Positions 3,228-33,057 of a stretch of DNA of 48,206 nt are shown here, piece after piece (the first letter of the stretch is position 1; the number at the start of each line of letters is the position of its first letter). A program made the translations under genes and the position numbers. The notes under the pieces were generated by a model. The model was not told the DNA's origin. It saw nothing but the letters and a program-made list of their open reading frames with translations, and did not search any database. The DNA is from Candidatus Omnitrophota bacterium (GTDB lineage Bacteria; Ratteibacteria; UBA8468; B48-G9; DTJG01): assembly GCA_023484085.1 (NCBI GenBank), contig JAMDAS010000005.1:1-48206 (forward strand), written 5' to 3'.

Positions 3228-3368
3228 AATGAAAACAATAAACTACTTTTAAGGTTGCTGGTACCAAATGCAAAAAAATACTCAAAACTGCTTAAATTCG
3301 TGGCTGCTGATAAAGTGGATTTTATGAATAATCTTAAAGACAAACTGAAATATAAGGGGTTGAAATAA
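3228..3368 (+). pseudogene. In-frame coding-like tail after the parB-like stop
   Basis: After the TAA at 3225-3227 the same frame stays open for 46 codons (including LLLRLLVPNAKKYSKLLKF and DKLKYKGLK) to a TAA at 3366-3368. There is no good start codon or ribosome site. It could be the former C-terminus of the upstream protein, lost by a nonsense change, or a small remnant of another gene. Chance is possible at this length. Confidence 0.3.
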
Positions 3369-3373
3369 AAAAA

Positions 3374-3416
3374 GAGGACCAATTACATAAGGACTAACCC
3401 TTATGAACCTGTCCTC
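3374..3416. terminator. Nested inverted repeat, possible bidirectional terminator
   Basis: GAGGAC at 3374-3379 pairs with GTCCTC at 3411-3416, and inside it CATAAGG pairs with CCTTATG around a 6 nt loop. It follows an A-rich run, so on the minus strand the stem is followed by a run of T. It sits between the parA module and the convergent 43-residue gene, suiting a terminator for either side. Confidence 0.45.
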
Positions 3417-3524
3417 ATCGTGATTCCAATATTATAATACTTTTTATTTTTGCAAATGTCAATAGAAATTCCGTATCCGGGAAAATCTGAATAAAAATGT
3501 TTTTTGCAGTGGACTAACCCCTTT

Positions 3525-3656
3525 TTATTTTTTGGATTTTTTCTTTTTCTGTCCACCACGAGCCATTTTTGCTTCACATACGTTTCCCTGTCCGTCAATA
3601 TAATACATGCATCCTTTTTCCCTTTTAACAGCTTCCTTTATTAAAATTCTGCCCAT
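3525..3656 (-). CDS. 43-residue basic small protein
   Basis: A short gene starting with MGRILIKEAVKREKG, followed by CMYYIDGQGNVCEAKMARGG and a C-terminal run of lysines and serine. It resembles a group of tiny archaeal and bacterial proteins of unknown function that share the pattern YYIDGxGNVCEAKMxRG and a polylysine tail. The start is well supported: GAGGTGAT lies 4-11 nt upstream of ATG 3656. Two cysteines and the basic tail suggest nucleic-acid or metal binding, but this is inference. It faces the plasmid module convergently. Confidence 0.7.
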   Translation of the reverse strand: MGRILIKEAVKREKGCMYYIDGQGNVCEAKMARGGQKKKKSKK

Positions 3657-3811
3657 TTATATCACCTCACTTGTATATAGTTTTTATTTTTTATTACAAA
3701 TTGTCAAATTTTTATGAGGTAAAAAATATGTTATATAAAAAATTTTGATATAATATAAGAATACAAAAAACAGTGAAATTAATATAAAAGAAAAAAACCG
3801 AAAAATTTAAA

Positions 3812-4861
3812 ATGAATAAAATTATAAAAGCTGAAGACATCTTTGATAAAATTTCTATTTTGATAGAGCAGGCAAGAAAAAAAGTTGCCACCACAATTAA
3901 CCAGGAAATGATTTTACTTTACTGGAATATCGGAAAAACTATCAAAGAAGAAATAATAAAATCTAAACGTGCGGAATATGGAGAAAAGATAGTGCAATCA
4001 CTGACTGCACTATTAGTACAGCGATATGGAAGAGGTTTCTCTAAAAGAAATATATGGTATATGATCCAAACGTATGAAGCATATCCAATTCTCCAATCAC
4101 TGCTTGGAGAATTTAAAGATTTAAGTTGGACCCACACAATTACCCTTATACCAATTGAAGATAAATTAAAACGACAATTTTATGCGACACTCTGTAGCAA
4201 AGAACAATGGAGCACCAGAACACTGCAAGAAAGAATAAGAACCATGCTTTATGAAAGAACTGCATTATCAAAACTTCCTGAAAAAACCATTGAAATGCAA
4301 TTACTGGAACTGAAAGAAAAAGATAAGATGACACCGGAATTAACTTTCAGGGATCCTTATGTTCTGGATTTTTTGGAACTCTCTGACACATACAGCGAAA
4401 AAGATATAGAAAAAGCAATATTAAACGCACTGGAAAAATTTATCCTGGAATTAGGAAAGGATTTTTATTTTGTGGCAAGACAAAAGAGAATAACTCTTGA
4501 TGATATAGATTATTATATGGACCTGGTATTTTATCACAGGGAACTACGCTGTTTTGTGGTTATAGATTTAAAGCTTGATAAATTCAGGGCAGAATATAAA
4601 GGACAAATGGAATTATATTTAAGATGGCTGGAAAAGTATGAAATGAGACAGGATGAAAACCCGCCCATTGGGATTATCCTTTGTACAGAAAAAGGGAAAG
4701 AACAAATAGAATTATTATTTTTACCGGAAGACAGGATCCGGGTTTCAAAATATTTAACAAAATTACCACAAAAAGAATTATTCTCTGAACAATTACATAA
4801 AGCAATGCAAACAGCACAGGTACAACTTAAAAAAGAAAGTACATGTAGATCGGTTTTTTGA
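3812..4861 (+). CDS. YhcG/DUF1016-family PD-(D/E)xK nuclease
   Basis: A 349-residue protein with the two halves of the YhcG family. The N-terminal helical DUF1016 domain (about 5-160) contains LLYWNIGKTI, AEYGEKIVQSL and the GRGFSKRNIWYM signature. The C-terminal nuclease-like domain (about 175-340) contains FRDPYVLDFL, then DIDYYMDLVFYHRELRCFVVIDLK, where Asp and the DLK motif form the PD-(D/E)xK core. EYKGQMELYLRWLEKYE follows. Family members are linked to defence islands and mobile DNA. The C-terminus ends in an unrelated-looking STCRSVF, so the last residues may have been altered. A TATAAT at 3749-3754 could be its promoter. Confidence 0.85.
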   Translation: MNKIIKAEDIFDKISILIEQARKKVATTINQEMILLYWNIGKTIKEEIIKSKRAEYGEKIVQSLTALLVQRYGRGFSKRNIWYMIQTYEAYPILQSLLGEFKDLSWTHTITLIPIEDKLKRQFYATLCSKEQWSTRTLQERIRTMLYERTALSKLPEKTIEMQLLELKEKDKMTPELTFRDPYVLDFLELSDTYSEKDIEKAILNALEKFILELGKDFYFVARQKRITLDDIDYYMDLVFYHRELRCFVVIDLKLDKFRAEYKGQMELYLRWLEKYEMRQDENPPIGIILCTEKGKEQIELLFLPEDRIRVSKYLTKLPQKELFSEQLHKAMQTAQVQLKKESTCRSVF

Positions 4862-5060
4862 AATCTCTGGAAGCGTTGAGTATCAATGGTTGGACAGGTT
4901 TTTATATTTAAGTTTTTTTGAAAATCCGATACATCTGGCTTTACCAGGGGCAAGAAAGTGGGTTTAAATTGATTATATAGAGGGGTTTTTGCTGGGAATG
5001 GCTTGATTTTGGGAATTTTTTAAGTGGATTTCAATTTTAAAAAAAGAAATAAATTTATGG

Positions 5061-5066
5061 TATAAT
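5061..5066 (+). promoter_or_regulatory. Extended -10 promoter of hicB
   Basis: TATAAT at 5061-5066 is preceded by TGG, giving an extended -10 element, 15 bp before the hicB ATG. No good -35 is present. The region 4862-5060 between the nuclease and this promoter shows no gene. Confidence 0.45.
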
Positions 5067-5081
5067 AAATAAGGTGAAAAT

Positions 5082-5297
5082 ATGGAATTGAAAATTGTTT
5101 TAGAAAAAGGCGAGGATGGTTATATTGTTGTTCACTGTCCTTCTTTAAAGGGATGTTGGTCTCAAGGTAAAACAGAAAAAGAAGCTATTTCTAATATTAA
5201 AGAAGCAATAGAATTATATTTAGAATCAGATGTTTCAGAAAAACAACTAAGAGAAAAAATTAACAGCTATCACAAAATTATGCAAGTTTCTTTATGA
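5082..5297 (+). CDS. hicB: HicB-family antitoxin
   Basis: A 71-residue protein with the HicB partial RNase H-like fold: a first strand MELKIVLEKGEDGYIVVHCPSLKGCWSQG and then TEKEAISNIKEAIELYLE. This is the hallmark of the HicB/UPF0150 family that neutralises the HicA mRNA interferase. AAGGTG precedes ATG 5082. No C-terminal DNA-binding extension is visible. Its stop overlaps the start of the HicA reading frame by ATGA. Because that toxin frame is broken, this antitoxin may now be an orphan. Confidence 0.88.
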   Translation: MELKIVLEKGEDGYIVVHCPSLKGCWSQGKTEKEAISNIKEAIELYLESDVSEKQLREKINSYHKIMQVSL

Positions 5298-5527
5298 GCC
5301 CTAAACCCCCTCTTCTTTCTGGCAGATAAATAGTTAAAGTCTTTCAAAATATTGGATATTATAAAGTTAGCCAAAAAGGTAGTCATATTAAAATATTTAA
5401 TAAAGAAAAAGAAATTACTCTTATTATTCCTGACCACAAAGAAGTTGACCGTTGGACACTTAAAGGAATTTTAAAGGATGCAGAACTTTCCGTAGAAGAA
5501 TTCATCAAAATTCTTAATCGTAGATAA
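5294..5527 (+). pseudogene. hicA: HicA toxin gene with premature stop at codon 12
   Basis: The frame starting at ATG 5294 reads MSPKPPLLSGR, then TAA (5327-5329), then IVKVFQNIGYYKVSQKGSHI and on to VDRWTLKGILKDAELSVEEF before its natural stop at 5525-5527. Length (77 codons), the family start, the catalytic His in GSH and the C-terminal helix are all HicA. Only codon 12, normally acidic in this family, is a stop; GAA or GAG to TAA/TAG needs one or two changes. The four-base overlap with hicB is intact. Either the toxin is dead or a short N-terminally truncated product is made by reinitiation. Confidence 0.85.
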
Positions 5528-10720: not shown

Positions 10721-11125
10721 GTGATGGAATGTATGGAAATTCTTTCTATTGCGGCTCAAAAAGGAATAAAAATATATTCAGTTAAAGGGAACTGGCAATT
10801 AGATAATAGTATTCAAAGTAAAATTATTGCTATGGCTTTCTCAATGGCTGCTGAGATTGAAAGAGATTTGATTTCACAAAGGACAAAAGAAGCACTGCGA
10901 ATAAAAAAAGAATCTGGATTTCCATTAGGACGTCCACCAGGTCCGGGAAAAAGTAAATTGGATAAGTTCAGACCAGAAATTGAAGCTCTGTTGATTAACG
11001 GTTCTACCCAGAGATTTATTGCCAGACGATATCAAACTACTGAATCTAATTTGTTTAATTGGATGAAAAAACATAAAATACAAAATGTTCGTTCTGAGAT
11101 TCAAAATGAAAGGGTAAAATTATAA
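10721..11125 (+). pseudogene. N-terminally truncated serine resolvase
   Basis: The readable frame (134 residues from GTG 10721; stop just before it) corresponds to the second half of a small serine recombinase: KGIKIYSVKGNWQLDN, the E-helix MAAEIERDLISQRTKEAL and a C-terminal helix-turn-helix (STQRFIARRYQTTESNLFNW). The catalytic Ser domain start (YxRVST) is missing. The gene reads toward the Tn3-like end at 11128-11165, as the intact resolvase at 14692 does toward its own end. The protease cargo appears to have replaced the 5' half. Confidence 0.82.
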
Positions 11126-11165
11126 AAACTCGTGGTGTTTTCCCCCGGAATATGTAATTTTACCC

Positions 11166-11297
11166 AAATATGCAAAATATGCAATTATATCCCAAAATAT
11201 AAAAAATTGGAGAAACAAATTAATGGGAAAAGCGTGAAATTAAAGGGGGTTTGACAAAATACCGTGAAACATTTGCCCTAAATATGTAATTATACCC
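11166..11297 (+). repeat. Right-end remnant of a second Tn3-like element (copy E)
   Basis: AAATTGGAGAAACAAATTAA (TnpA tail, ending KIGETN-stop) at about 11203-11222 is followed by AAGGGGGTTTGACAAAATAC and the end itself at 11260-11297. The whole approximately 100 bp aligns with copy G (15553-15652) with scattered differences. It abuts the end at 11165 directly, so two elements are back to back. Confidence 0.7.
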
Positions 11298-11354
11298 AAT
11301 CTTCTGTAATAAGTTTTTACTTTGTAACTGTGTGCCTTTGTGCCTAAGATTTGC

Positions 11355-11373
11355 AAACTTCAAAGAGAAGTTT
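11355..11373. promoter_or_regulatory. Operator-like inverted repeat upstream of MFS gene
   Basis: AAACTTC and GAAGTTT form a perfect 7 bp dyad around AAAGA. CTTTGTGCCT occurs on both sides of it (about 11335 and 11378). It lies 56 bp upstream of ATG 11429, suiting a regulator site, though no regulator gene is nearby. Confidence 0.35.
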
Positions 11374-11428
11374 TAACTTTGTGCCTATAAATATGAACGG
11401 TGTTTAGTCAATATTTACCAATAATATT

Positions 11429-12628
11429 ATGGATAATAAGTGGTATGTAAATAAAAATGCATTCTTATTAAGCCTATCCGCTTTTTTTGCTGATTTAGGT
11501 TATCAATTGGTTTTAACCGGATTTCCAATATACATAATTTTTTATTTAAAAGCCCCTGTATATTCAATAGGTTTAGCTTATGCTGTTATTTATGGCGGTG
11601 GCTCAAAAAATATATATTTTGGCGGGATATTAGGAGACAGATTTGGTAAGAAAAGAATGGCAATCGTGGGAAATCTGCTTATACCTATTTTATCATTTAC
11701 GGCATTTTCTACGAATGTTTTTTTAGCAATTCTATTATTTTCTTTGGGCTGGTGGGCAAGAAATCTTAGAACACCTTCAAGAAGAGGTATGCTTTCTGAT
11801 GTAGTAACTGTGGAGCAAAAATCCAAAGCATTCGGACTTATGCATTTTCTTGATATAACAGGAGCTGCCCTTGCCGCATTGACTTTTATAATAATGCTTT
11901 ATTTTAAAGTAGAGATAAAGTATATATTCTTAATTGGCGTTATACCTTTACTTATATCTACACTCTGTATTATTTTTGTTGAATACAATGATAAAGTTTT
12001 ATCTGTCAAAAATGAAGTTTCAACACAAAAAACAGATAAACAAAAATCAGATGAAATGGGGAAAATATCCAAGAATGTACTCTGGGGAATACTAATTGGA
12101 ACTACTTTGTTTGGTTTCAGCTATTATAGTTTAGGATACCCTATAATAACAATATCCCAGATATCAGGTAAAGATACAATCGGAGCCCTTTCATACTTTA
12201 TTTATTTGTTTGTTTCCGGAATTACAGGATATGCTGTAGGATATTTTGCCGGAAAATTTAATAAGGTTAAATTTCTTGGTTTGGCTGGTTATATTTTATC
12301 CGGATTTGGTTCTATATTAATTGGTATAGGTTATTTACTGCATTTAGGTCTTTTATTCCCATTCATTGGGGTTGCAGTTCTTGGTTTGGGGCTGGGTGTT
12401 ATAGAAACCCTTGAACCATCTATAATTTCCCTGATAAGTCCAAAGAAAACCATAGGAAAACAGATGGGTAAACTCACTGCTGCAAGAAGTATTGGATTAT
12501 TCATAGGAAATCTTGCAATGTCTCTATTTTACATGTCAAGCCCTTTTTTATCTTATGGATATGCATTTTGTATATCTATAATTGCAGGGGGGATAATTTT
12601 ATATTTTGGAAGAAGAGCCAATATATAA
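11429..12628 (+). CDS. MFS transporter
   Basis: A 399-residue major facilitator protein with about 12 membrane segments in two halves joined by a hydrophilic loop (around residues 190-215, KNEVSTQKTDKQKSDEMGK). The loop-2 signature appears as GGILGDRFGKKRMAI, and helix 4 carries WWARNLRTPSRRGMLSD, as in the multidrug or metabolite efflux subgroup. The substrate cannot be told. The next gene downstream begins a copper P-type ATPase, so the pair could have been a metal-resistance cassette. It lies between two transposon ends. Confidence 0.85.
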   Translation: MDNKWYVNKNAFLLSLSAFFADLGYQLVLTGFPIYIIFYLKAPVYSIGLAYAVIYGGGSKNIYFGGILGDRFGKKRMAIVGNLLIPILSFTAFSTNVFLAILLFSLGWWARNLRTPSRRGMLSDVVTVEQKSKAFGLMHFLDITGAALAALTFIIMLYFKVEIKYIFLIGVIPLLISTLCIIFVEYNDKVLSVKNEVSTQKTDKQKSDEMGKISKNVLWGILIGTTLFGFSYYSLGYPIITISQISGKDTIGALSYFIYLFVSGITGYAVGYFAGKFNKVKFLGLAGYILSGFGSILIGIGYLLHLGLLFPFIGVAVLGLGLGVIETLEPSIISLISPKKTIGKQMGKLTAARSIGLFIGNLAMSLFYMSSPFLSYGYAFCISIIAGGIILYFGRRANI

Positions 12629-12647
12629 AAACTGAATATTTACTTAT

Positions 12648-13006
12648 ATGAATACTTCAAATAATATATATACTTGTCCGATGCATCCGCAGATTATTAG
12701 TGATAAACAAGACGACTGTTCTATATGCGGCATGGCACTTGAATTGCAATCTGTTTCTTTAGAAGAAGAAAAGAATGTTGAACTTATCTATATGTCAAGA
12801 CGTTTTTGGATTTGTCTTGTTTTAACCATTCCTATTATTTTTCTTGCTATGAGTAATTATATACCAGCAATATCAATTAAAAATATCCTTTCTTTTAAAG
12901 CAGTTGAATGGCTTGAGGGTATAATTACCACGCCGATAGTTTTGTGGGGAGGATGGCCATTTTTTGTCAGAGGATTTAATTCTATAAAAAACCGCAGTCT
13001 AAATAT
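12648..13006 (+). pseudogene. Truncated heavy-metal P-type ATPase (CopA/CopB-like)
   Basis: The frame begins MNTSNNIYTCPMHPQIISD and then CSICGMALE, the YHS-like metal-binding motif (CPMHP...CPMCGM) found at the N-terminus of CopB/SilP-type copper ATPases. Two membrane helices and WPFFVRGFNSIKNRSLNM follow, the usual lead into membrane segment 3. At exactly this point (13007) the Tn3-like end GGGTAAAATTACA begins and the frame closes after GKIT. About 85 percent of the enzyme (phosphorylation and ATP domains) is missing, so it is non-functional. Confidence 0.85.
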
Positions 13007-13019
13007 GGGTAAAATTACA

Positions 13020-14643
13020 TAGGGCTTCACGAAACTAAAGATTTGGAATAAAAGACTTAATGAAACGAATACGTTTTGGTTCATTGACAAAAGAAGCAAA
13101 GAGAGCGACGGCCAGAACCGTAATATGAGAGATGGTGCATAAGTTGGCGGTGGCACGCAGTCCTTTGACTGATGGTTCCTGCATAGAAATAGCAAGGAGT
13201 CTGGAGAAAATGCGTTCACTGCTGGATCTGCGGTTGAAGTCCTTTTTGAAAGATTGGGAATCATAGTCTATTAAATGGCGAATGTCCCGGTCGACGCGGA
13301 TGTTTTTGTAACAACCAGAACCTTTTTCAAACTGAGGATGAGACCACGGACAATCAGGATGCAATGCTGCAAACTTTTTGGAAGCACGAATAGGGCAATA
13401 GAATTTATGGCGCATTCTATTTTGTCGGGGATCCCAGTATATTCCACGGGATATCATTTCAAATCCAGCGATGCAGACTGGAGCACCGGAAAAAGAAAGA
13501 GTTGGTTGGGAACCGGAGTCACGCCGGAGATTTCTGGCAATACGCGGTTTAGCATGCAAAGTGTTAAGAATAAAATCAATAATAGTTGCGGAGTCATATT
13601 CAGAATCTGCCATGACTGCTTTCGGATGAAAGCGATAATGTTCTTTCACAATTATAAGTTGGGGGATGATAACATTGGTTTCATAAACATTGGCAGGTAG
13701 TGTACACTCAACTATGGGTAATTCGGATACCGTATCATTAATAAGATGATTACGATAGCCCCAAAAGAATTCAATTTTCTTTTTTCTATCAGGAAAAGTA
13801 GAAAAGACGCTTAATCTAGCATCCGGGTCACTGTGAGGTGGATGATCTTTAGAAAATCTATTATGAACATGTGTTTTTAGATTATTATTTTTCACATTCG
13901 CTTTAATAGGACAAGCATCAACAGAAAGATATTTTCCGGAAATAACTTTACGTTTAATAAGATGAAGAACGAGTGTTTCCCGAATTTGTTGCAAAATAGC
14001 ATTGTCGATGGTGCGAAGAAAAACAGAGAATCGTTCGACTGGAATCGGTTCTGTTCTGGTAGGGAAACCAAGTATATATGAAAGCTTCGGCCGTTCATAG
14101 AGCTCAACTGTCAGGTCACTCAAAGTAAGAAGAGAACGGAGATTTTTAAATATGAGTGCCTTGGTAATGGCAGCATGGCTAATAGGCCGGCGGCCCGTTT
14201 GAAAAATATTATCTAACGATGAAAGATCCAGCAGAGAAAAGAAACGTTGGTACTTTTCCATAGGTTCTTTGAAAAGTTCCTCTGGGTCGAACAAAATTGG
14301 TTGAAACATATTTACCTCCCGTTTCGTGAAAGTCGCATAAAAATATTAGATACATAGTATCATCTCGAAAGGGGAGGAGGTAAAAAGAGAAAAATTAAAA
14401 TTTAGGCAGAATAAGGGTTTTCAAATAAAATAAAAATAAAAAAAATAGGGTTTCACGAAACTAAACGACAGTGATTTTTGCCCTCCTGTCCTTCGGAAAA
14501 AATGGCAAAATAGAGAAAAATGACAAAAAATACATGCGTAAACCCGCACTGCTCAACGATTTTCATAGCAGGAGGGCAAATTTAAAATAGGCAGTCTCTG
14601 AAACCGTTGTGCCTCAATGGTTTCGAAGTTTCGTGAAAGGCTA
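13020..14643 (-). mobile_element. DDE insertion sequence inserted in the transposon end
   Basis: Inverted ends TAGGGCTTCACGAAAC (from 13020) and, read inward from 14643, TAGCCTTTCACGAAAC frame the transposase gene. TAAAATTACA is duplicated on both sides (13010-13019 and 14644-14653), a 10 bp target duplication. The right 330 bp contain a further end-like copy (TAGGGTTTCACGAAAC at about 14452) and a 12 bp inverted repeat, TTTGCCCTCCTG at 14477 with its complement at 14569-14580. Removing the IS restores a perfect Tn3-like end. Confidence 0.82.
13035..14309 (-). CDS. IS4/IS1182-like DDE transposase
   Basis: A 424-residue transposase. The N-terminal DUF772-like region (TGRRPISHAAITKALIFKNL, SDLTVEL) is followed by the DDE core: SVDACPIKANVKN (first Asp), MADSEYDSATIIDF (second Asp) and, near the end, RRSSSERIFSRLLAI (Glu). 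A Cys/His-containing insert (FYCPIRASKKFAALHPDCPW) is typical of IS1182-like transposases. The gene is full length and uninterrupted, so the element may be active. GGGAGG (14316-14321) precedes ATG 14309. A 3' remnant of the same gene lies at 8857. Confidence 0.88.
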   Translation of the reverse strand: MFQPILFDPEELFKEPMEKYQRFFSLLDLSSLDNIFQTGRRPISHAAITKALIFKNLRSLLTLSDLTVELYERPKLSYILGFPTRTEPIPVERFSVFLRTIDNAILQQIRETLVLHLIKRKVISGKYLSVDACPIKANVKNNNLKTHVHNRFSKDHPPHSDPDARLSVFSTFPDRKKKIEFFWGYRNHLINDTVSELPIVECTLPANVYETNVIIPQLIIVKEHYRFHPKAVMADSEYDSATIIDFILNTLHAKPRIARNLRRDSGSQPTLSFSGAPVCIAGFEMISRGIYWDPRQNRMRHKFYCPIRASKKFAALHPDCPWSHPQFEKGSGCYKNIRVDRDIRHLIDYDSQSFKKDFNRRSSSERIFSRLLAISMQEPSVKGLRATANLCTISHITVLAVALFASFVNEPKRIRFIKSFIPNL

Positions 14644-14691
14644 TAAAATTACATATTTAGGGGGAAAATACCGCGTCCTTAACCCAAATTG

Positions 14692-15249
14692 CTATCCATT
14701 TTGCTCTCTGATGTATTTATAAAGAGTAGGTTTGGAAATACCCATCATTTGGCAAATATCTTTTATAGAATGTTTTTTACTTGTATATAATTCAACCACA
14801 AGTTTTCGTTTATTTTCTGGCAATAACTTAGGTCTACCTCCTTGCCGACCCCTGGTTCTTGCCGCTTCTAATCCTGCACGAGTTCTTTCCCGGATTAAAT
14901 TTCTTTCAAATTCAGCCAGTGCTGCAAAAATATGAAAAACCAATTTTCCACCGCTTGTGGTAGTATCAATAGTTTCTTGTAAGCTTTTAAATCCAACACC
15001 TTGCTGTTCCAGTTCATTTACCCATTCAATTAAATGTTTTAAAGTGCGTCCTAACCGGTCTAAACGCCACACAATCAATATATCATCTTTCCGTAAAATT
15101 TCTTTGAGTTTATTTAAACCAGGCCGTTCTGCAACGGAGTCGCTAATTTCATCAGTGATGATTTTTTCACACCCTGCTTGTTTTAATGCATCTATTTGTA
15201 AGTTTAAGTTTTGTTCTATAGTTGAAACGCGAGCATACCCAACTTTCAT
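14692..15249 (-). CDS. tnpR: Serine resolvase of the Tn3-like element
   Basis: A 185-residue small serine recombinase. The N-terminus MKVGYARVST contains the nucleophile Ser9. The catalytic arginines lie in IVWRLDRLGRTLKHL and the E-helix AALAEFERNLIRERTRAGLE follows. The last 45 residues form a Hin-type helix-turn-helix (SIKDICQMMGISKPTLYKYI). Length and domain order equal Tn3 TnpR. CCGGAGG-like sequence upstream of ATG 15249 serves as ribosome site. It reads toward the recombinase-side end of its element and has a dyad 73 bp upstream, consistent with a res site. It looks intact. Confidence 0.92.
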   Translation of the reverse strand: MKVGYARVSTIEQNLNLQIDALKQAGCEKIITDEISDSVAERPGLNKLKEILRKDDILIVWRLDRLGRTLKHLIEWVNELEQQGVGFKSLQETIDTTTSGGKLVFHIFAALAEFERNLIRERTRAGLEAARTRGRQGGRPKLLPENKRKLVVELYTSKKHSIKDICQMMGISKPTLYKYIREQNG

Positions 15250-19992: not shown

Positions 19993-20637
19993 CTAATTAA
20001 TATTTTGGGGTTGATATTTCTCCATTATTTGTCTGACTTTATCTTCAAAAAACTTTTTTACATCTTTCCAGTCATATTTTTTAAGCATTACAATATTTTC
20101 ATTTGCAGTTTCTGCATCTCTGAAATAAGCCAAACTTTTTATAATATGAAAAATGTTATCCCTGACTTGTTTATATTTCTTTTTATATAATTCAAGAAGA
20201 GTAAATAAATCTTCTTTTTGGCATATAAAATATAAATCAATAAAGTCCCTTTTGGTACCTCTGGAACCAATAGCATCTATTTTCATACAAGCAATATCTT
20301 TTAAATCAGCAATGTTAATATTTAAGAATCTTTGTTCAGGAAAAAGAAGTGGATAAGGGTAAGTAAAAAAACTTATTTTTGTATTATTAAATTTCCCGAC
20401 AATAGTATTTTTTGATGTATATTCTATAAAAAAAGACCCTCTTAATTTCAAGTCTCTGTAAATATCTTCATAAAGGAAATCTTTAAGTGTGAAAAAATCC
20501 AAATCAAAAGAAAGACGGTGCCCCAGATAAAGTGCGCAGCCAGAACCCCCTGCCAAATAAAAATCATCTAATTGCTCCATTCCTTTTAATAGGGCCAAAT
20601 CGCTCTGTGTTGCCTGAGATAATCCTTTTGTAAACAT
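19993..20637 (-). CDS. AbiEii/AbiGii-type nucleotidyltransferase toxin
   Basis: A 214-residue nucleotidyltransferase. The fold's motif appears as YLAGGSGCALYLGHRLSFDLDFFT (about 27-50), with GSG in place of the usual GGT and the acidic pair DLDFF. Next come NIADLKDIACMKIDAIGSRGTKRDFIDLYFI, the conserved helix region of AbiEii/AbiGii family proteins. Such enzymes transfer nucleotides to tRNA or other targets and act as toxins in phage defence. It overlaps the upstream DUF6922 gene by 52 bp. Its last codons lie inside a 21 bp direct repeat found again at 28601. Confidence 0.85.
   Translation of the reverse strand: MFTKGLSQATQSDLALLKGMEQLDDFYLAGGSGCALYLGHRLSFDLDFFTLKDFLYEDIYRDLKLRGSFFIEYTSKNTIVGKFNNTKISFFTYPYPLLFPEQRFLNINIADLKDIACMKIDAIGSRGTKRDFIDLYFICQKEDLFTLLELYKKKYKQVRDNIFHIIKSLAYFRDAETANENIVMLKKYDWKDVKKFFEDKVRQIMEKYQPQNIN
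20009..20029 (+). repeat. 21 bp direct repeat, left copy
   Basis: GGTTGATATTTCTCCATTAT plus T is identical here and at 28601-28621, in the same orientation, 8592 bp apart. It frames the AbiEii pair and the giant surface-protein gene. It could be the scar of an integrated segment or of recombination between the two 3' gene ends. Confidence 0.7.
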
Positions 20638-20888
20638 TTTGTCTCTTGTTCTTTCAGATTAAAATACCATGCCCAAAAATAATCGTTTTTCAAAAAAGTG
20701 AATGCCCTACTGGTTTTCACTATTTCCTTTATTTGATCTTTGGGATAGGTTTTAAACATCCATTTGATGGCTTTTTCATCTCCATATTCCAAAATTCTTT
20801 CAATAATAGTGTAATAATTTTTTTTGCTGTCTAATTTTTCAAAATACACATTCCAAAAATATTTTCTTAGGTATTTAGGTGGTTTCAT
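20586..20888 (-). CDS. DUF6922-like protein, probable antitoxin
   Basis: A 100-residue protein starting MKPPKYLRKYFWNVYFEKLD, then YYTIIERILEYGDEKAIKWM and FKTYPKDQIKEIVKTSR, the pattern of DUF6922 proteins. These are commonly encoded just upstream of AbiEii-type nucleotidyltransferases and presumed to be their antitoxins. It begins 6 bp after the stop of the giant surface protein and overlaps the toxin gene by 52 bp, so all three may be on one transcript. Role inferred from this arrangement. Confidence 0.75.
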   Translation of the reverse strand: MKPPKYLRKYFWNVYFEKLDSKKNYYTIIERILEYGDEKAIKWMFKTYPKDQIKEIVKTSRAFTFLKNDYFWAWYFNLKEQETKCLQKDYLRQHRAIWPY

Positions 20889-20894: not shown

Positions 20895-23800
20895 TTAGCC
20901 ATTTACTCTGCGTCTTTTCAGAAGCACTAAAATAATGGATAGTTCTATTGCCAGAGGCCCTACAGGAGTTCCGCCGCCACCACCGCCACCACCACTTGAA
21001 GTTGATGGAACATAGACCTGGTACGTTGCAGGATTTATAGAAGGACTTGAACCATAATCGTTATAGGCATAAACCTCATAGGTATACGTTCCAGCCGAAG
21101 GAGTATCTGTAAATAAAGTCTGGCCTGATGTAGTTGTCCCCACAAGAACATAGGAACTTGGGTTAGCCGGAGTTGTAGTCCTGTAAACCTCAAATCCTTT
21201 CAATGCCGCACCATTTGATGGATAGTTCCATACAAGATAAACAGCATTATTTGAACCAACAGCGGCACTTAAATTTGTTGGATTGGAAGGCAGGTCAGCA
21301 GACGTTAATGGACTTAAAACGTGCGTAGTCCCGTCTGAAAGGCTTGCAATTATATCAATAATTCCATCGTTATCAAGGTCTGACACAATAACATTTTGAG
21401 GGGCTGCAGTAAAGGTATAGGAATAAACTGAAGCAAGATTATTATCCAGAACCTTTATGGTATCCCCTGAAGAAATAATCAGGTCGTTCCCGCCACTGGT
21501 CCCTGCAAACCTACAGATAGCCCAGAGTGTTCCGATATTTTGAGAAGGGGTGATTACATTGGTACCATTCCTGACATCAATACCATATAAATTCCCGCTG
21601 TCATCAGTAAATACAAAGTCCCTGATTCCGCCTCCGGTCATGTCTGCAATGGCAGCACTTATGTTCTGGTTTGTTAAAGGAGTATAAGAAGCACTTTGCC
21701 ATGTGTTAAGTATTTGTCCATTTGCCGGATTTATCAAATAGACTATAAGAGGGCCTGGACTTGAAGCCGTTGAAGTCCTTACTGCAACTATTTCATCAAA
21801 TCCGGTCCCGTAAATATCAGAAACATAAGGCGTTATTTTCCCATGAACTCCAGAAAAGGTAGTCGTCCATAAGGTTTGTCCTGTCTGTACATCCACAGCA
21901 GTAAGCTGACAATTACCTGTATCAAAATAACCGCCCGCAAGAGCCTCTATTTTACCATCACTTCTCACATCAAATACAATTTTGGACGGGGCAATCTGCC
22001 TGTTCAACTGAGTTTCCCAGACAATAGTATCCGCAGGTGCAAAATCCGTTACGTACATTGTATCAAAACCTGTTGTTCCATTACTGCCTGCGAAGAACAT
22101 AACTCCCGCGGCAACCCTTGTCTGCCATTGCGTACCTGAAGGAGCAGAAGCATCAGTGACAACAGGATTGATTGCCTTTCCCTGACTGTTATAAATGTCA
22201 GCAACATTTGCACCTGTTCCCGAAAGAAAAACCTGAATATTACTATCAAGTGTTGCGCTATCAGCAAGGGAAAGAGAGAAAGACGTTGATATTGGACTCC
22301 ATTGTTCATTAGCATAAGATTGCGTAGATGAATTATATTTATAGGCATATAAATTATTTCCATTTGTCATCAGTAAATCAAGGACTCCATTACCATTAAT
22401 ATCAGATGTCAGCATCTGGGGTGCAGAATTACCGAATGAATATCTGTCAACAAGAAATGCACCACTTAAAACCGACTGGGTGGAAGTAAATGGATAATAT
22501 CTTGAATTCCCAAGGTCATAATCAATCCTTGACCATCCATCAATAAGTATAAAATTCTGGTTTATCTGGGATGCCTGGAGCCCATTATAGGTTTTGAATA
22601 ATGGAACTGAATTCTGGACAAGAGGTATAATTTTATACATACCTGCCTGGGATAGATTATTGAATTGGTATGCCCCGGTGGAATCTGTCTGTGTCATCTG
22701 CGTTTCATTTGTTGAATCATCAGAAAGCAGTATTTTCACGTTTGTCTGCGGAGTACCATAATAATTCAGGATTGTTCCGCTTATGGACATGTTTGTATTT
22801 ATAAGAGTTTCTACTGGTGTTTCCGTATTACCCGCATCATCCACTGACATTGCATAGATTGTGGTTGTATTTGGCGGAATGCTAACATTATTACCGGGAG
22901 TATAAGTGTTCCATCTGAGATTATCAAAAGAATATGAGGTCGTGGCAACACCTGATAGATTATCAGTTGCTGATAATGTAAATGTGTTATTGGGATAGTT
23001 AACATTTATTACAGTAACAGGCGGAGTAACATCCACTTTTATCGGATTCCCTGAATAAGTAGTTGTAAAACTGCCATTGCCTAAATAATCAAAATCATAA
23101 CTTTCAATATTTATATTCGTCCCTTCTTTTATTGAAATTTGAACAGGATTAGGACTAAGTGATGTGTTCCATGTGGTTCCATCATCAAGGCTATATGCCG
23201 CTCCTTGTGTTCCAGCTCCTGTATCTGCCCCGGGAGTTATTGTTGCCGTGGGTGCAGGAGCCTTATACCAACCATTGTTCCCTGTGGGAGCGCCAGGACT
23301 TAATGAAATCGTTGGAGCAGACGGCGGTGTATTATCAATGGTAAATGTTAGTTGTTTATGGGGAGATTCAGTATTCCCTGCGCCATCTTCAGCATAAGCC
23401 CATATAGAGGTATCAGCAACACCAACAGTAAATGGTGTGGAATAGATTGTTGTAGGATTATCAGTATCTAGATTATACTTTGGATATCCTGACGCTATAC
23501 CAGAAGAAACGCCAGTTACAGAATCCGGCGGGTCTACAGAGGTAATCTTAAAATAAGTAGGATTTTTATTGACAGATGACGTTACATACAGGGTTGAACC
23601 GCTTTGATAAGATGGGCCTTTTGAAACTGATATTGTTGTCACTGGCGGTGTTGTATCACCAGAACTCAGGTTATATAAATTATGTGGTATTTCAACATCA
23701 CCACCAGTATCATCAGCCCAGTATTCAATACTTTTTATTCCTAAGCCACTCGGGTTTGTTTGGGTAGGCAGCTGAAATGTCGTTGATGAACCATTAAATA

Positions 23801-26800
23801 TATTTATGGGACTTTGAGTGCCATCTGAATAATGATAAATCCAGTATAAATGTGCCACAGTAAGACCTTGATTGGGGTCTGTAGCAGAAAGAGTAAACAC
23901 ACCCTTACTCACAGTAAGTGTAGAAATAGGGGGGAAAGAAAAGTAATATGTTTTTGTATTTGTAAGATACTCATCCGTAGTTCCAGCGTCTCCTACCCCG
24001 GCAGAATCTCCAAATGAAATACTGGAGCCTGAAGGAGTTGAAGCAGAAGAAAGTATAACAGCCTGTACACTATTTCCGGGTGAGCCTGTGATTGGATTAT
24101 TTGCTCTAAGAACTATAAAGAAATTATTTATCCCTGTGTTAACATTCGGCAAAATAGTATTGGGATTATTGGTTGCAAAATTAAACTGAACCTGGTACTG
24201 GCCTGGACCAATCGTGGTAAGAATAGCGGATAAAGGAGTACAGGCAGTATCAGTACTCTGCCATGAGGTTTCACCTGTTGTGTTTTCATAAAGAGCCACA
24301 CCGCTTGTTAAAGAATTTGTTGATAACGCGGCAAGGTTTGCCCCACTGCCGCCAGGTCCAAACAGGTTTGTTCCATTAAGGTAAACATTTAGCTGGGTAA
24401 TACGGGTATCATTAGAAGTGGTATCATTTATGTATGTTCTTATACCTATTACCGGAAGAGTGCTTCCAGCGGAAATATATGTTTCAGGCTGACTTAAATC
24501 AGTAAGGTATACAGGTATATTTGCAGTAAGGGTATTGGTTGTCAGGTTAGTATTTGCAGAAGAATAACCTGATGAAAAATTTATATCATTGGATGGCAGA
24601 CTAAAACTAAACTGGTCTCTATAGTTTATAGAAGTACCTGTTTTAAAGGCAATCCAATAATCCGGGTTTCCACTGATGTTAGATGTGGGTAATGTGTTAG
24701 GGGTGGCAAGAGTTATATCTGTATAATATCCTAATTTGTTCCTGCCCCTGCCTATGAAATAGACATCATCCCCGGGAACAAATGCCCCTCCATTGTATGT
24801 ATTGTCATAATATGCAAACCCGTATAAACTTCCTGTAACCAAAATACCATAAGTACCATTTAAAGGAGCAGTACCTGCAAGTAATTCATCCGTACCCTGT
24901 TTGTACGTCCCATCACCATCACTATCTATCCATAATGCATCCTGACTTGTTCCTCCTGAAAACCATACACTGTTTCCATCAGCATCATACCAGTAAACAT
25001 GGTCGGTTGATTGGAAAAATGTCAGGTTGGTATCCTTTGCTATTAAATCATGGGGCATTGTTGGTCCAAGAACAGTTCCAGGGGGACCTACTGGTGGCGT
25101 TAGCCCCAACCAGCTATAAGTATAGTCATCCTGCCATAAAGATACTGTGGATGGTAAAAATGTATCTGCTGAAGGATTAAATACACCGCTTCCTGTAGTA
25201 TCTTCCCAGAGTGTAATTCCACTCTGATTATTTGTTTGTAAAGGCATTAAGTCAGACTCTGGAGTTACATTATCTGATTCAGGATTAAAATAGACCTGAA
25301 AGCTGTTAAGTTTGTTTACTCCACTTGCATCATATACGTTTATTCCTATTGCAGGTACCCATGTACTTTGCGCATCAACTTTTTCACCAGATATGGTAGC
25401 ATCAGTGAAAATCGGCGTGCTTACTGATGAGTCTGTAAGCTCGTAGGTTAATACTCTTTTAAAGGTTGTACTTAAGGAATACCCTGTTGCTGAATCTGTC
25501 AGACTTTTTAAATAAGTCGGGTCTAATGGATTATTATCAATAAAATGAAATGTTCTGTCTATCCCTGTATCTATACCTGCATCTTCCTGCAAGCTTCCCC
25601 ATACAAGGATTCTGAAATTATCACCAGGCTGCATATAAGAGGTTGGCTTGATAACCAGGAAATAATCAGGACCTGCATTTGAACCTGTATCCGTAGTAGG
25701 AATATTCCCAACAGAATTCGGGTCGAGATGAAGAATAATCCTGTGCCAGTTTGGTGGGTCAGTAGGACTACTGGCTAATTCAACAGCATCTGCCGGATTT
25801 GTACTTGAAAACAGCACCCTTGTATCAACAGCCGTGCTAAAAATACCAGGCATTGATGGGTTAGATTTATAAAGGGCAATGCCTGTGCCGCCATTCGGGT
25901 CATTGGGATTGCCGTTAACATTGACAAATTTTGAATAATCAAATGTGGGATGTAGCGGGTCATCTATAATAAGGAACGAAAACTGGTCAAATGAAATATC
26001 TTGCCCTTGAGGCGCTACCAGGTCAAGACCAACAACAGCAGTTTGCTGATAAGAATTAACTGTCTGGCCTGGTTGTGTAAGGTTGGTAAAGAAGCAGGGC
26101 ACATCAGCACCGGCAAGATTATTATTTATAATAGGCCAGTTAAAACTTAGCTTTGGACTGCCAAAGGTATTTGCATAGGGGCCAGTATGAAACTGCATAT
26201 CCCATGATGGAATACCATTGTTAACACCTGTATCAATATGAACAGTATCACCAGGTAAAGCATCAGGATTGTTATGAGTCAATCCAATAGCGGCTTTTAT
26301 ATGGTTATCAAAATCAATTCCTCTTTCATAAGGATTGGTTGAATATGTTGAAGATGAAATACCTCTTCCTCTTACACAGACAAAAAGGTCATATCCGCGG
26401 GCAGTTCCTGTATTATTATCAAAAAAATCATTATTATTCATGGGAATTGCCACTGCAGGCTTTAAAACCACATAATACCGCTTATCTTTTGGAAGGGGAT
26501 TTGCAGGGTCATCATTCTGTGGGCTCCAGACAGTTCCATCTGAGTTATACCATTCAAGACTGGAAGTAGAAAGAGTGATATGGGAATCTCCAGAGGTTTC
26601 ATCTATAACGCTTAAACCCTGTTCAAGGTTTGCTTCAGATACATTACGCGGGTCAAACACACCTACATTCCCACTGGTCTTGCTGTCCATCCATAAGCTA
26701 ACGCCTGAATTTGCGCCTGTGGTAAGAGTAGCCAATTTATTGGGTGTAAAACTCCCATCATCGCTATAAAACCATACCCTTACCTGCTGTAAAGCATCTT

Positions 26801-28508
26801 TTGCCACACCTGTTCCATCATCCATATTTATTGAAAAAATAGGGGTGGGGAATCCACCTGCTTCAGGTGGTTCATCCCGTCCATCAATTAAATTCTTATT
26901 CAGACTTTCCTGCGGAAATGGTTCAACATCAAGAACTGTATTTACTGCTTTAAATAAAACAGAATCAGCATACACAGCATCTCCCGGATGTAATGTTGGA
27001 GGATTTGGTTTCCAGTTATAAGGAAAAGTATCACTATAAAAACTTAAACTTTTTGTCGGTTTTGTTTTTAGGGATAATTTGAATTTTGTTCCATAAATAG
27101 GCGTTTGTGTAGTTCCTGACCAGTCTGGTTTTGGACAAATCACAATAAAATAATTATCAAGTCCTGAGCCATAATTGTTTACTGTTGAATCAAGAGGCGC
27201 GGATGGAGGAGTAAATTGAAGTGTAGCAGTCCATTCATTAGGATAACCGCCGACCGGTGCAATTGGAATATTTGGAGTACCACCGAGAACAATAGGATTA
27301 GAAGGTGTTATCATCTGGTCTTTTGTCGGGTCAAAAATACCTGTGTGCGCAGTATCATACCATAAACTTACATTTGGATATGTGGCATTTATATTATCTG
27401 CAAGGTCTCTTGTCGGGTCAAAAACCGAGCCATCATTATTTGGAAAGGAATCTATTGTAACAAGAATCTGGGTAATATAGTCTGTTTTTCCATATTGAGT
27501 AGTACGTGCCTCACCTGCAAGGTTTAAACCAATAACAGGATAAGCAATATCCATTCCCATTACTTCTGGTTCAGTTTCCTTATTCCATACCCCGAATTGC
27601 CCGTTAAAATATGAAGCATCCGGATAATATTGTCCGCTTGCTCTCATCAAAGTGATAGGACCATAAGTATAATAATGTGTACTATCATATCCATTTGGCT
27701 CATATCCATTTGGTGGAACAGATGAGAATTGAGGCAGGGGATTATTAATACTATCCCCTCCGGGATAGGCATTTCCAGTTAGTGGAGTCAGAGTAGCAGG
27801 ATACACATCAGTAGCCAGGGGAGTAAGGTCAGTAATTTTTGCCTCACAGGTAGAATTGCCTGAAGGAGAATTAACTACGGGTGAAAAAGAAGGTCCAAAA
27901 GGCTGATAATATGTCCTGCCAGAAACTGTAGCAGAATTATATGCAACTGAAACTGTTGAACCATTGGTTATTGTATTTGAAGTCTGGATAACTACAAAAA
28001 ACGTTCCGGTCCAGATTGTATCAGTTCCCGGCGGCGGATTGGTATCTGTCAAGCCTGAACTAAGATTAATAGTAACTGGAGTATCATTTCCATCTCCAGA
28101 AACTGTAAGATACCCAAGCTCTATATTGCTTCCATCAAATGTCCCGGTCCCGGGATTTATAGTACTATCACCATAAATTGATACTCTTTGAATAAAACCA
28201 GTAGCAGGTGGAGGGGGATTACCAGTACTGGTCATATACAGTGTCAAAGCCACCTGAGTCAAATTTGCAGAAGAAAGTCCTGTATCACTTGTGCAGGTAA
28301 CCGCAAGTTGCAGAACAGGCGTTGGAGAACTGTTTGGCAAAATACCCTGATTTGTATCTACTATATTTGTTGCTGTAACAGAAACGGTTTGGACATTGGC
28401 ATGTAAAAGAGCGGGGAGGAAAAACAGAGAAAGAAAAAATATGCATTGCCAGGATTTAATCTTAAACCTTAAAAATTGTAATTGATGCAGTTCCAATTTA
28501 TTTTTCAT
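20895..28508 (-). CDS. Giant modular secreted surface protein with C-terminal anchor
   Basis: A 2537-residue exported protein. An extended signal peptide (cleavage near residue 38, ALLHA) is followed by about 1400 residues of repeated roughly 200-residue modules. Each has an LWxD...FDP segment and ends in a strand like YFIVICPKP, YYVVLKPAV, YFLVIKPTS, YWIAFKTGT or FFIVLRANN. Next come Ig-like repeats with DNTPPSAPTI and YAEDGAGNTES (OmpL47-like), a carboxypeptidase-type regulatory domain (SISGTILNYYGTPQTNVKI), a beta-propeller with DLDNDGIIDIIASL, and one fibronectin III domain. The tail is eight Gly, a hydrophobic segment (LAIELSIILVLL) and KRRR, a sorting or anchoring signal. Enzymatic residues were not seen; adhesion or surface layer is likely. 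Confidence 0.88.
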   Translation of the reverse strand: MKNKLELHQLQFLRFKIKSWQCIFFLSLFFLPALLHANVQTVSVTATNIVDTNQGILPNSSPTPVLQLAVTCTSDTGLSSANLTQVALTLYMTSTGNPPPPATGFIQRVSIYGDSTINPGTGTFDGSNIELGYLTVSGDGNDTPVTINLSSGLTDTNPPPGTDTIWTGTFFVVIQTSNTITNGSTVSVAYNSATVSGRTYYQPFGPSFSPVVNSPSGNSTCEAKITDLTPLATDVYPATLTPLTGNAYPGGDSINNPLPQFSSVPPNGYEPNGYDSTHYYTYGPITLMRASGQYYPDASYFNGQFGVWNKETEPEVMGMDIAYPVIGLNLAGEARTTQYGKTDYITQILVTIDSFPNNDGSVFDPTRDLADNINATYPNVSLWYDTAHTGIFDPTKDQMITPSNPIVLGGTPNIPIAPVGGYPNEWTATLQFTPPSAPLDSTVNNYGSGLDNYFIVICPKPDWSGTTQTPIYGTKFKLSLKTKPTKSLSFYSDTFPYNWKPNPPTLHPGDAVYADSVLFKAVNTVLDVEPFPQESLNKNLIDGRDEPPEAGGFPTPIFSINMDDGTGVAKDALQQVRVWFYSDDGSFTPNKLATLTTGANSGVSLWMDSKTSGNVGVFDPRNVSEANLEQGLSVIDETSGDSHITLSTSSLEWYNSDGTVWSPQNDDPANPLPKDKRYYVVLKPAVAIPMNNNDFFDNNTGTARGYDLFVCVRGRGISSSTYSTNPYERGIDFDNHIKAAIGLTHNNPDALPGDTVHIDTGVNNGIPSWDMQFHTGPYANTFGSPKLSFNWPIINNNLAGADVPCFFTNLTQPGQTVNSYQQTAVVGLDLVAPQGQDISFDQFSFLIIDDPLHPTFDYSKFVNVNGNPNDPNGGTGIALYKSNPSMPGIFSTAVDTRVLFSSTNPADAVELASSPTDPPNWHRIILHLDPNSVGNIPTTDTGSNAGPDYFLVIKPTSYMQPGDNFRILVWGSLQEDAGIDTGIDRTFHFIDNNPLDPTYLKSLTDSATGYSLSTTFKRVLTYELTDSSVSTPIFTDATISGEKVDAQSTWVPAIGINVYDASGVNKLNSFQVYFNPESDNVTPESDLMPLQTNNQSGITLWEDTTGSGVFNPSADTFLPSTVSLWQDDYTYSWLGLTPPVGPPGTVLGPTMPHDLIAKDTNLTFFQSTDHVYWYDADGNSVWFSGGTSQDALWIDSDGDGTYKQGTDELLAGTAPLNGTYGILVTGSLYGFAYYDNTYNGGAFVPGDDVYFIGRGRNKLGYYTDITLATPNTLPTSNISGNPDYWIAFKTGTSINYRDQFSFSLPSNDINFSSGYSSANTNLTTNTLTANIPVYLTDLSQPETYISAGSTLPVIGIRTYINDTTSNDTRITQLNVYLNGTNLFGPGGSGANLAALSTNSLTSGVALYENTTGETSWQSTDTACTPLSAILTTIGPGQYQVQFNFATNNPNTILPNVNTGINNFFIVLRANNPITGSPGNSVQAVILSSASTPSGSSISFGDSAGVGDAGTTDEYLTNTKTYYFSFPPISTLTVSKGVFTLSATDPNQGLTVAHLYWIYHYSDGTQSPINIFNGSSTTFQLPTQTNPSGLGIKSIEYWADDTGGDVEIPHNLYNLSSGDTTPPVTTISVSKGPSYQSGSTLYVTSSVNKNPTYFKITSVDPPDSVTGVSSGIASGYPKYNLDTDNPTTIYSTPFTVGVADTSIWAYAEDGAGNTESPHKQLTFTIDNTPPSAPTISLSPGAPTGNNGWYKAPAPTATITPGADTGAGTQGAAYSLDDGTTWNTSLSPNPVQISIKEGTNINIESYDFDYLGNGSFTTTYSGNPIKVDVTPPVTVINVNYPNNTFTLSATDNLSGVATTSYSFDNLRWNTYTPGNNVSIPPNTTTIYAMSVDDAGNTETPVETLINTNMSISGTILNYYGTPQTNVKILLSDDSTNETQMTQTDSTGAYQFNNLSQAGMYKIIPLVQNSVPLFKTYNGLQASQINQNFILIDGWSRIDYDLGNSRYYPFTSTQSVLSGAFLVDRYSFGNSAPQMLTSDINGNGVLDLLMTNGNNLYAYKYNSSTQSYANEQWSPISTSFSLSLADSATLDSNIQVFLSGTGANVADIYNSQGKAINPVVTDASAPSGTQWQTRVAAGVMFFAGSNGTTGFDTMYVTDFAPADTIVWETQLNRQIAPSKIVFDVRSDGKIEALAGGYFDTGNCQLTAVDVQTGQTLWTTTFSGVHGKITPYVSDIYGTGFDEIVAVRTSTASSPGPLIVYLINPANGQILNTWQSASYTPLTNQNISAAIADMTGGGIRDFVFTDDSGNLYGIDVRNGTNVITPSQNIGTLWAICRFAGTSGGNDLIISSGDTIKVLDNNLASVYSYTFTAAPQNVIVSDLDNDGIIDIIASLSDGTTHVLSPLTSADLPSNPTNLSAAVGSNNAVYLVWNYPSNGAALKGFEVYRTTTPANPSSYVLVGTTTSGQTLFTDTPSAGTYTYEVYAYNDYGSSPSINPATYQVYVPSTSSGGGGGGGGTPVGPLAIELSIILVLLKRRRVNG

Positions 28509-31495: not shown

Positions 31496-32890
31496 TTAGA
31501 AGGATACTGTCATAGATGCAAGTGCCTGCCATGGGTCTTCTGTGGTAGTTCCTTTTCCTAGGTAATCCTTAATGAAGCCGCCTCTGTAAAGCTGTCCAAT
31601 GGTTACGCCAAATGCTACGTCATCACTATAGGCATAATTTAAACCAAGGTCAACTTCACTTCCCACAGATTCACTGGATGCTGCACCGAAACCGGTAGCT
31701 GCCAATCTGGTATCAAGTGAAAGGTCAAAGTAGTTAAGGTATACGCCAAGTCTTTGAAGTGGCTGAAATCCTACTCCGAGTTTTGCAACCTTTACACCTG
31801 GGAAATATGGAGCCGTATAAATTGTAGGTCCAAGTCCAAAAGAGGAACCGCCATACAGCAATGTCCATACTGCAGGATATCCAATTGAACCAAAATTGTT
31901 TGCAAGTCCTGATGGAAACATTGGCTGCCATGATTTTACCTTTCCACCGACTGCATCAGCTCCGGAATAAATACTGTACTTTGCAGAAATGAAAGGTTTC
32001 ATTGGTGTTGAGAATACATATTTGCCACCAACATATCCCGCCCATCCTTCATAAGAAGGATGACCTGCTGTTGTTTCATCTTTTCCAAACTGCTTTCCAT
32101 ATTCTGCCTTGAAGGAAAGATTCTGTACTGCCGGAACTGTCAACGTCCCTCTTAAACCAGCTGTTGTAATAGAACTGTTTGATGCAGGAACAACTCCTAG
32201 AGTTGTGTTTCCATAGTTGTATTCATTAACTATGTATGGTTCAAGAGACCAGTTTGATGGTGCATAAAGTACACTTAATCCATAAAGGTTTATATCATTT
32301 GGAGTTGCTGCCGGTGATGTAAGAAATGCAGTACTGGATTCTTGTACTTTAGAAAAAAATCCCTGTGCGCTTAATGGAATTATTGGAGTTGCATAATTCA
32401 ACTTGATGGCATCAAAGGACTGTTGAAGTCCAAGGTCTGGAGCAAGAAGACTTGCCACTGCACCATAGTTTAGCGCATTATACTGGCTGCCTATTACAAG
32501 TCCTTCTCCTATTTTCAGGTCCTGTCTTCCTATTGTTGCATTAAGACCAGGGGTGAAAAGGTCAGCAAGTTTTACATATGCAAGGTCAAGGGTGATATTT
32601 CCATTGGAGGAAGGTGCAAAACCTGTAATAGATTGGCCCCAATCTCTTTCATTGATAATCCGAACCATTGTACTGACATTGTTGGACAAATCTGATGATA
32701 CCCATACTCTTACAGAACTCTGAAGAAAATCATTGTTTTTGTATAGCTTGCTAAAACTAAAATCATGTCTGAAGGCACCATAGATTGTAAAGTCTCCGCC
32801 AACTTTCACGTTCTGAACTGCTGAATATGAAGGAATGGCAAGACCAAGAACAAGACCCAGTGCCGCTAACATTAATATTCCTTTTTTCAT
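31496..32890 (-). CDS. Outer-membrane beta-barrel porin
   Basis: A 464-residue secreted protein from ATG 32890. The signal peptide MKKGILMLAALGLVLGLAIP with SYSA is followed by alternating strands, aromatic girdles and a final ALASMTVSF with C-terminal Phe, the recognition signal for barrel assembly. Segments such as NATIGRQDLKIGEGLVIG resemble alginate-export-type porins. AGGAG lies 8 nt before ATG 32890. An in-frame GTG at 32989 has an even better ribosome site (AAGGAGGTGA) but would put 33 residues before the signal peptide. A consensus promoter 215 bp upstream and a terminator downstream make it a strongly expressed single-gene unit. Confidence 0.85.
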   Translation of the reverse strand: MKKGILMLAALGLVLGLAIPSYSAVQNVKVGGDFTIYGAFRHDFSFSKLYKNNDFLQSSVRVWVSSDLSNNVSTMVRIINERDWGQSITGFAPSSNGNITLDLAYVKLADLFTPGLNATIGRQDLKIGEGLVIGSQYNALNYGAVASLLAPDLGLQQSFDAIKLNYATPIIPLSAQGFFSKVQESSTAFLTSPAATPNDINLYGLSVLYAPSNWSLEPYIVNEYNYGNTTLGVVPASNSSITTAGLRGTLTVPAVQNLSFKAEYGKQFGKDETTAGHPSYEGWAGYVGGKYVFSTPMKPFISAKYSIYSGADAVGGKVKSWQPMFPSGLANNFGSIGYPAVWTLLYGGSSFGLGPTIYTAPYFPGVKVAKLGVGFQPLQRLGVYLNYFDLSLDTRLAATGFGAASSESVGSEVDLGLNYAYSDDVAFGVTIGQLYRGGFIKDYLGKGTTTEDPWQALASMTVSF

Positions 32891-33057
32891 TGTGAAACTC
32901 CTAAAGTTATCTATATGCTCCGGTTCACACCGGTTTATGTTTATGATTCTTATTCTTTGTTCTTTCCCTTCATTACCCGCCTTTTTCACGGTTCACCTCC
33001 TTTTCCGGCTTTTTTGCAATAAAGGTTCAAAGAATAAAATATAAGTTAATAATTTAT

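Follow-up and report, generated by a model that had tools for sequence, protein, structure and literature searches.

Rhombosortase is the enzyme known for Gly-rich tripartite C-terminal tails, and both the enzyme and its targets are known mostly from Proteobacteria, together with single members of few other phyla (PMC3237569). According to Haft and Varghese, there are many targets per enzyme, which is encoded apart from them when they are several (PMC3237569). For example, in Vibrio cholerae the rhombosortase cuts VesB within its GlyGly-CTERM, the exposed Gly gains a glycerophosphoethanolamine-containing group, and the type II secretion system (T2SS) delivers the protein to the surface (PMC6219818); further V. 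cholerae tails likewise direct proteins to rhombosortase (PMC13393428). This pair, described by the models TIGR03501 (GlyGly-CTERM) and TIGR03902 (rhombosortase), is known from Vibrio, Shewanella, and Acinetobacter. Also, a tripartite plan is shared by the PEP-CTERM tails, found across many exported proteins and paired with exosortase, and by the MYXO-CTERM surface-sorting tails, which depend on a CPBP-type enzyme (myxosortase) and contain a Cys that is invariant.

Based on the analysis reported here, the tail of a 2537-residue secreted protein and a short rhomboid encoded in the same genome are likely to work as a rhombosortase-type C-terminal sorting system. The likeness to GlyGly-CTERM/rhombosortase comprises the Gly-rich motif, helix, and basic end of the tail, the signal peptides, the many unrelated targets (secreted proteases included) per short rhomboid, and the separate location of the enzyme gene; in the enzyme, it extends to GLSG, a (Y/F/W)E motif, and the catalytic His, with T2SS-type secretins being present in the phylum. 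However, the signature of the present tails is G..PVGPLA, with the second Pro of the motif block being invariant, the enzyme has Asp for the usual Asn of HxxxN and CH instead of AH, and the pair belongs to a lineage represented by 35 genomes. Because tail and enzyme both stay under the curated cut-offs, although their architecture, co-occurrence, and motifs are those of the known pair, we regard them as a variant and not as a plain member, that is, probably as a divergent version of the GlyGly-CTERM/rhombosortase surface-anchoring system.

A multidomain protein with six diverged modules

The window (the whole stretch of 48,206 nucleotides analyzed here) contains the reading frame at the coordinates originally given, but in minus-strand orientation, its plus strand being riddled with stops (Table 1). 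Besides the signal peptide, hydropathy reveals one hydrophobic helix, at the C-terminus. An orthologue of 2316 aa is encoded in the only other genome of the genus (G001, L057:6225-13175; the own genome is G000), where the gene neighborhood is conserved on the tatD-like, mtaB-like side. Identity between both proteins is 35% in the first two thirds of the sequence and rises to 65% in the rest, which includes the tail. When the entire protein was searched against its own genome, only tail matches were obtained outside its own gene.

Table 1. Coordinates of the surface-protein gene and its features in the window.
Feature	Residues	Coordinates	Strand	Evidence
CDS, secreted multidomain surface protein	2537 aa	20895..28508	(-)	
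N-terminal signal peptide region	1-38	28395..28508	(-)	Sequence; hydrophobic stretch residues 17-40
Module 1	61-201	27906..28328	(-)	Leave-one-out HMM E 3e-3 here (weak), 7e-12 in G001 orthologue
Module 2	321-495	27024..27548	(-)	Leave-one-out HMM E 1e-12; orthologue copy missed
Module 3	553-723	26340..26852	(-)	Leave-one-out HMM E 5e-11
Module 4	821-980	25569..26048	(-)	Leave-one-out HMM E 6e-4 here (weak), 2e-7 in orthologue
Module 5, long insertion	1050-1316	24561..25361	(-)	Leave-one-out HMM E 5e-11
Module 6	1349-1504	23997..24464	(-)	Leave-one-out HMM E 1e-7; AlphaFold2 model
OmpL47-type domains	~1705-1899	22812..23396	(-)	NF047446 63.8 bits, over cut-off 40; NF047441 41 bits, under cut-off 250
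Carboxypeptidase-regulatory-like domain	1908-1960	22629..22787	(-)	PF13620 30.1 bits, cut-off 32.3
FG-GAP/PQQ-type propeller repeats	~2036-2394	21327..22403	(-)	PF13517 27.3 bits (cut-off 26.9), PF13360 26.4 bits (cut-off 27.6)
Fibronectin type III-like domain, weak	2401-2493	21030..21308	(-)	PF00041 E 0.6; titin Fn3 chain E 0.04
C-terminal sorting tail: Gly8-T-PVGPL, hydrophobic helix, KRRR	2506-2537	20898..20993	(-)	Common to 15 other proteins, 4 genomes

The N-terminal part was originally predicted to hold about six modules of some 200 residues. The number stands, with six diverged copies between residues 61 and 1504, and the uniform length does not, the copies spanning 141 to 267 aa, with boundaries that are approximate because they were set visually from the first and last strands. 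For each position, a profile was built without that position and then sought in the 2537-aa protein and in the G001 orthologue; in this way each of the six positions was recovered from one orthologue or from both, with best E-values from 1e-7 to 1e-12. The consensus starts with a P(V/I)xG(I/L) strand followed by a sGV(S/A)L(W/Y) strand, continues with a D..g.g.F.p..D loop, and closes with a (Y/F)F(I/L)V(I/L) strand.

The view that these modules correspond to no named domain is borne out, no Pfam or NCBIfam family being found over residues 1-1500 (the best match, at chance level, is DUF3052, E 0.13). The AlphaFold2 model of module 6 is all-beta with 9 strands (pLDDT 74, pTM 0.75), and its comparison with solved structures by Foldseek places cohesins (6kg8, 2jh2) and TTHA1873 among the top matches. 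The predicted 9-stranded all-beta build is also that of cohesin-type and other Ig-like beta sandwiches, but the resemblance is weak, the best matches to such folds having an E-value of at least 0.03 and a TM-score of at most 0.39, with no sequence family match. A search of the PDB with the module profile returned matches at chance level only, one of them being a dockerin (E 0.57). The model predicts an ordinary type of beta sandwich, not assigned to a family. The modules are likely structural in role and perhaps are stabilized by calcium, as loops rich in Asp and Asn ahead of the F.p..D stretch suggest.

Directly downstream of the surface-protein gene, at 19993-20888 (-) of the window, lie genes for an AbiEii-type nucleotidyltransferase (PF08843) and a small DUF6922 protein. 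At the corresponding spot of G001 this pair is missing, and the surface-protein gene is followed by an aminotransferase-like gene, which suggests that a type IV toxin-antitoxin-like module has been inserted in the window.

A C-terminal tail shared by unrelated secreted proteins

The tail of the 2537-aa protein reads GGGGGGGGTPVGPLAIELSIILVLLKRRRVNG / STSSGGGGGGGGTPVGPLAIELSIILVLLKRRRVNG, so the Gly8-hydrophobic-KRRR order first described for it is correct, with T-PVGPL linking the Gly run to the helix. A search for further bearers in the own genome found three more: a C25-family peptidase and a BNR/sortilin-like protein with InlB-type repeats, both on contig C11, and a protein fragment at the start of contig C26. 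A profile built from these four tails alone matches G001 (E 4e-10) and two more genomes of the phylum, G033 (4e-9) and G029 (5e-8), the best E-value among the remaining 31 of the 35 phylum genomes being 0.05. A refined profile of 15 tails, searched against 386 genomes (323 genera), finds matches only in the same four genomes, one further and weaker tail, the sixteenth, coming from G001 (E 8e-4). The total is therefore 16 tails, 4 in the own genome and 12 in the three others, G029 having the most with seven; only the new matches of the four-tail profile and the sixteenth tail count as out-of-sample. Matches of a PxGPL DNA pattern on contig C14 were rejected as not being tails.

All 16 tails follow the tripartite plan of GlyGly-CTERM, that is, a Gly-rich motif, a transmembrane helix, and a basic cluster, although in several tails of G029 and G033 the helix is only mildly hydrophobic on the Kyte-Doolittle scale, falling under the 1.6 threshold applied. 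Moreover, four residues are invariant at fixed spacing in 16 of 16: the G three positions ahead of the PVGPL block, this block's second P, an L, and a K. The passengers are mutually unrelated; in G029 and G033 they include an M4 peptidase, a pectate-lyase-like protein, S8-like proteases, and a repeat propeller, the last two types being assigned by sequence. Tail proteins of the own genus have signal peptides and a single C-terminal helix. Hydropathy of 12 tail proteins shows an N-terminal peak wherever the N-terminus is complete and no other transmembrane segment, except for a weak extra peak (1.65) in L063:2506-5316. The sharing of one tail by unrelated secreted passengers indicates a sorting-type domain.

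The curated GlyGly-CTERM model does not recognize these tails. At E<=1, TIGR03501 leaves G000, G029, and G033 without a match, and its single 13.5-bit match in G001 lies elsewhere than the tails; in the positive control, G316, three matches are over the cut-off. No relevant literature was found on the PVGPL motif. Nonetheless, the original reading of the tail as a GlyGly-CTERM-like sorting signal gains support from its presence on several proteins and from the rhombosortase-like protease described below, TIGR03501 itself being blind to it.

Some neighbors of the tail-bearing genes deserve mention. Ahead of the C25 (gingipain-family) peptidase gene of the own genome (L055:2597-8626, contig C11), a C25 propeptide (PF08126) is encoded by a gene of its own, and the gene after the peptidase encodes an exported PDZ-domain protein, which may resemble GspC-like T2SS partners. 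In G001, two tail-bearing genes each have a prepilin-like gene as their immediate downstream neighbor (GFTLLE / GFTIVELL; L139 1605-2858 and L058 673-1446).

A short rhomboid as candidate sorting protease

It had been pointed out that such a tail would need a dedicated intramembrane protease and that none is encoded in the window. The latter is true, but a candidate is present on contig C12 of the own genome, and it is rhombosortase-like and not exosortase-like. Its gene is flanked by an NAD-dependent epimerase-like and a P-type-ATPase-like gene, away from those of the targets. This short rhomboid, of about 210 aa, is found in exactly G000, G001, G029, and G033 among the 35 phylum genomes. It is thus present in 4 of 4 tail-positive and 0 of 31 tail-negative genomes, a co-occurrence with a probability of 1.9e-5 if the genomes were independent, which they are not, and of 0.011 when counted by genus (2 of 14); only two lineages, both from this phylum, contribute to it. 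The other rhomboids of the phylum are of a separate type of 380-430 aa, found in 20 tail-negative genomes (two copies are partial). These 20 genomes, within G002-G026 (L066-L085), are without the short type, and no long one was found in the four tail-positive genomes, so that both types appear mutually exclusive in the phylum.

The best NCBIfam family of the short rhomboids is TIGR03902, rhombosortase, with 61.4, 62.7, and 74.7 bits, none of them reaching its curated cut-off of 84 bits. The same proteins score 27-33 bits against PF01694 and 17 bits or nothing against the GlpG model. Since GlpG-like rhomboids reach 66 bits, raw TIGR03902 scores are not discriminating, and the difference from the PF01694 score was used instead. 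This difference is about +34 (G000), +34 (G001), and +42 (G033) bits for the short rhomboids, compared with +45 to +122 bits for three reference rhombosortases over the cut-off and -29 to -41 bits for four GlpG-like rhomboids of similar TIGR03902 score.

In the alignment, S115 within GLSG and H180 are invariant in the three intact short rhomboids, and their (Y/F/W)E motif is common to four reference rhombosortases and to no other aligned row. The residue in place of the Ala before the catalytic His is Cys, and the Asp that replaces the Asn of HxxxN is Asp66. The three intact proteins form their own clade (100/100) on a long branch, apart from the reference rhombosortases; a joint clade with these is absent from the tree, yet the AU test does not reject it (p-AU 0.54), the branches being long. 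As the AlphaFold model of the protease is poor (pLDDT 57) and Foldseek against the PDB returned only noise, with no rhomboid, no structural claim is made for it; a search of the PDB with the protease sequence profile was empty. The fourth gene, in G029 (G029:C3:35880-36283, L089), lies near a contig end, is split over two frames, and lacks about 15 profile positions, which reflects either an assembly error or real decay.

Proposed sorting route and alternative explanations

In the proposed sequence of events, the modular cell-surface protein would be exported by Sec until the hydrophobic helix (residues ~2519-2530) halts in the inner membrane, the Gly-rich stretch facing outward and the basic cluster remaining on the inner side. 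The rhombosortase-like protease of contig C12, with Ser115 and His180 as predicted catalytic residues, would then cut in or just past the Gly run and free the passenger from the helix. By analogy with VesB of V. cholerae, the new C-terminal Gly may be joined to a phosphoethanolamine-containing lipid, and a T2SS would carry the protein to the outer surface, with its N-terminal sandwich modules extending away from the cell. These steps, from cleavage and its site to lipid attachment and the T2SS route, are inferred, and the last is possible in this organism: GspD-like secretins occur in all 35 phylum genomes, being over the cut-off in G001 and G033, while the best secretin of G000, which is 63% complete, has only 109 bits. 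Because they are present in all 35 genomes, GspD proteins are not informative as a specific partner.

If the tail merely anchored the protein in the inner membrane, uncleaved, and the rhomboid had another role, a hydrophobic helix and basic residues would suffice to hold the protein, and hydropathy shows the helix only. However, such an anchor has no need for an invariant G and P ahead of the helix, for fixed spacing in 16 proteins with unrelated passengers, or for co-occurrence with a special rhomboid, which makes it improbable. Another membrane protease might instead process the tail, the short rhomboid accompanying it through shared ancestry or lateral transfer, as both features are confined to two lineages and further genes may share this pattern. 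This also has little in its favor, given that the co-occurring rhomboid scores best against the very family known to act on Gly-rich tripartite tails (PMC3237569), that exosortase is absent, and that G000 and G001 have no CPBP protease. As to sorting by an exosortase- or CPBP-type (myxosortase-like) enzyme, the tripartite plan is common to PEP-CTERM and MYXO-CTERM, and CPBP proteases (PF02517) occur in 17 of the 35 genomes, G029 and G033 included. Nonetheless, exosortase (PF09721) is found in 0 of 35 genomes, G001 is without a CPBP gene while being 90% complete, the tails have no PEP motif, and their signature has no Cys, so that this kind of sorting is extremely improbable.

A different possibility is that the short rhomboid and its PVGPL tails stand as a system of their own, parallel to GlyGly-CTERM/rhombosortase and not a diverged branch of it. 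Recognition would then follow its own rule, given by the invariant Pro that separates the Gly run from the helix; the active site would be an altered one, with Cys preceding the catalytic His and Asp taking the place of Asn in HxxxN; and the anchoring chemistry might differ as well. We consider this unlikely and favor the divergent GlyGly-CTERM/rhombosortase pair. For that pair, the curated models of both tail and enzyme overlook a system that extends beyond current annotation into a poorly sampled phylum. On account of the tail, a set of large secreted proteases and of adhesin-like proteins can be regarded as probably located at the cell surface. Moreover, the pair provides a matched set of enzyme and substrates with a conserved Pro-containing motif and an altered active-site residue, which could be used to address which parts of a substrate are recognized by a rhomboid sorting enzyme and whether lipids are generally attached.

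Finally, other genes of the window were noted. A scan with the PTS EI-like gene yielded distant homologues only, from Firmicutes. An Alginate_exp-type outer-membrane porin (PF13372) is encoded at 31496-32989 (-), and a similar-looking protein lies ahead of a tail-bearing M4 protease in G029 (L060:8442-9806), which is consistent with a two-membrane cell. Within 12648-14309, what appears to be the beginning of a metal P-type ATPase, a fragment with a heavy-metal-binding domain (HMBD), ends beside a DDE transposase gene (13035-14309, -) and was probably truncated by an insertion element. Also, the translations at 480-5300 and 10721-15249 include ParA-like, PIN-domain (the one assignment that was checked), and DUF1016-like proteins and two serine-recombinase/resolvase-like ones, which suggests that the left part of the window is mobile or plasmid-derived.
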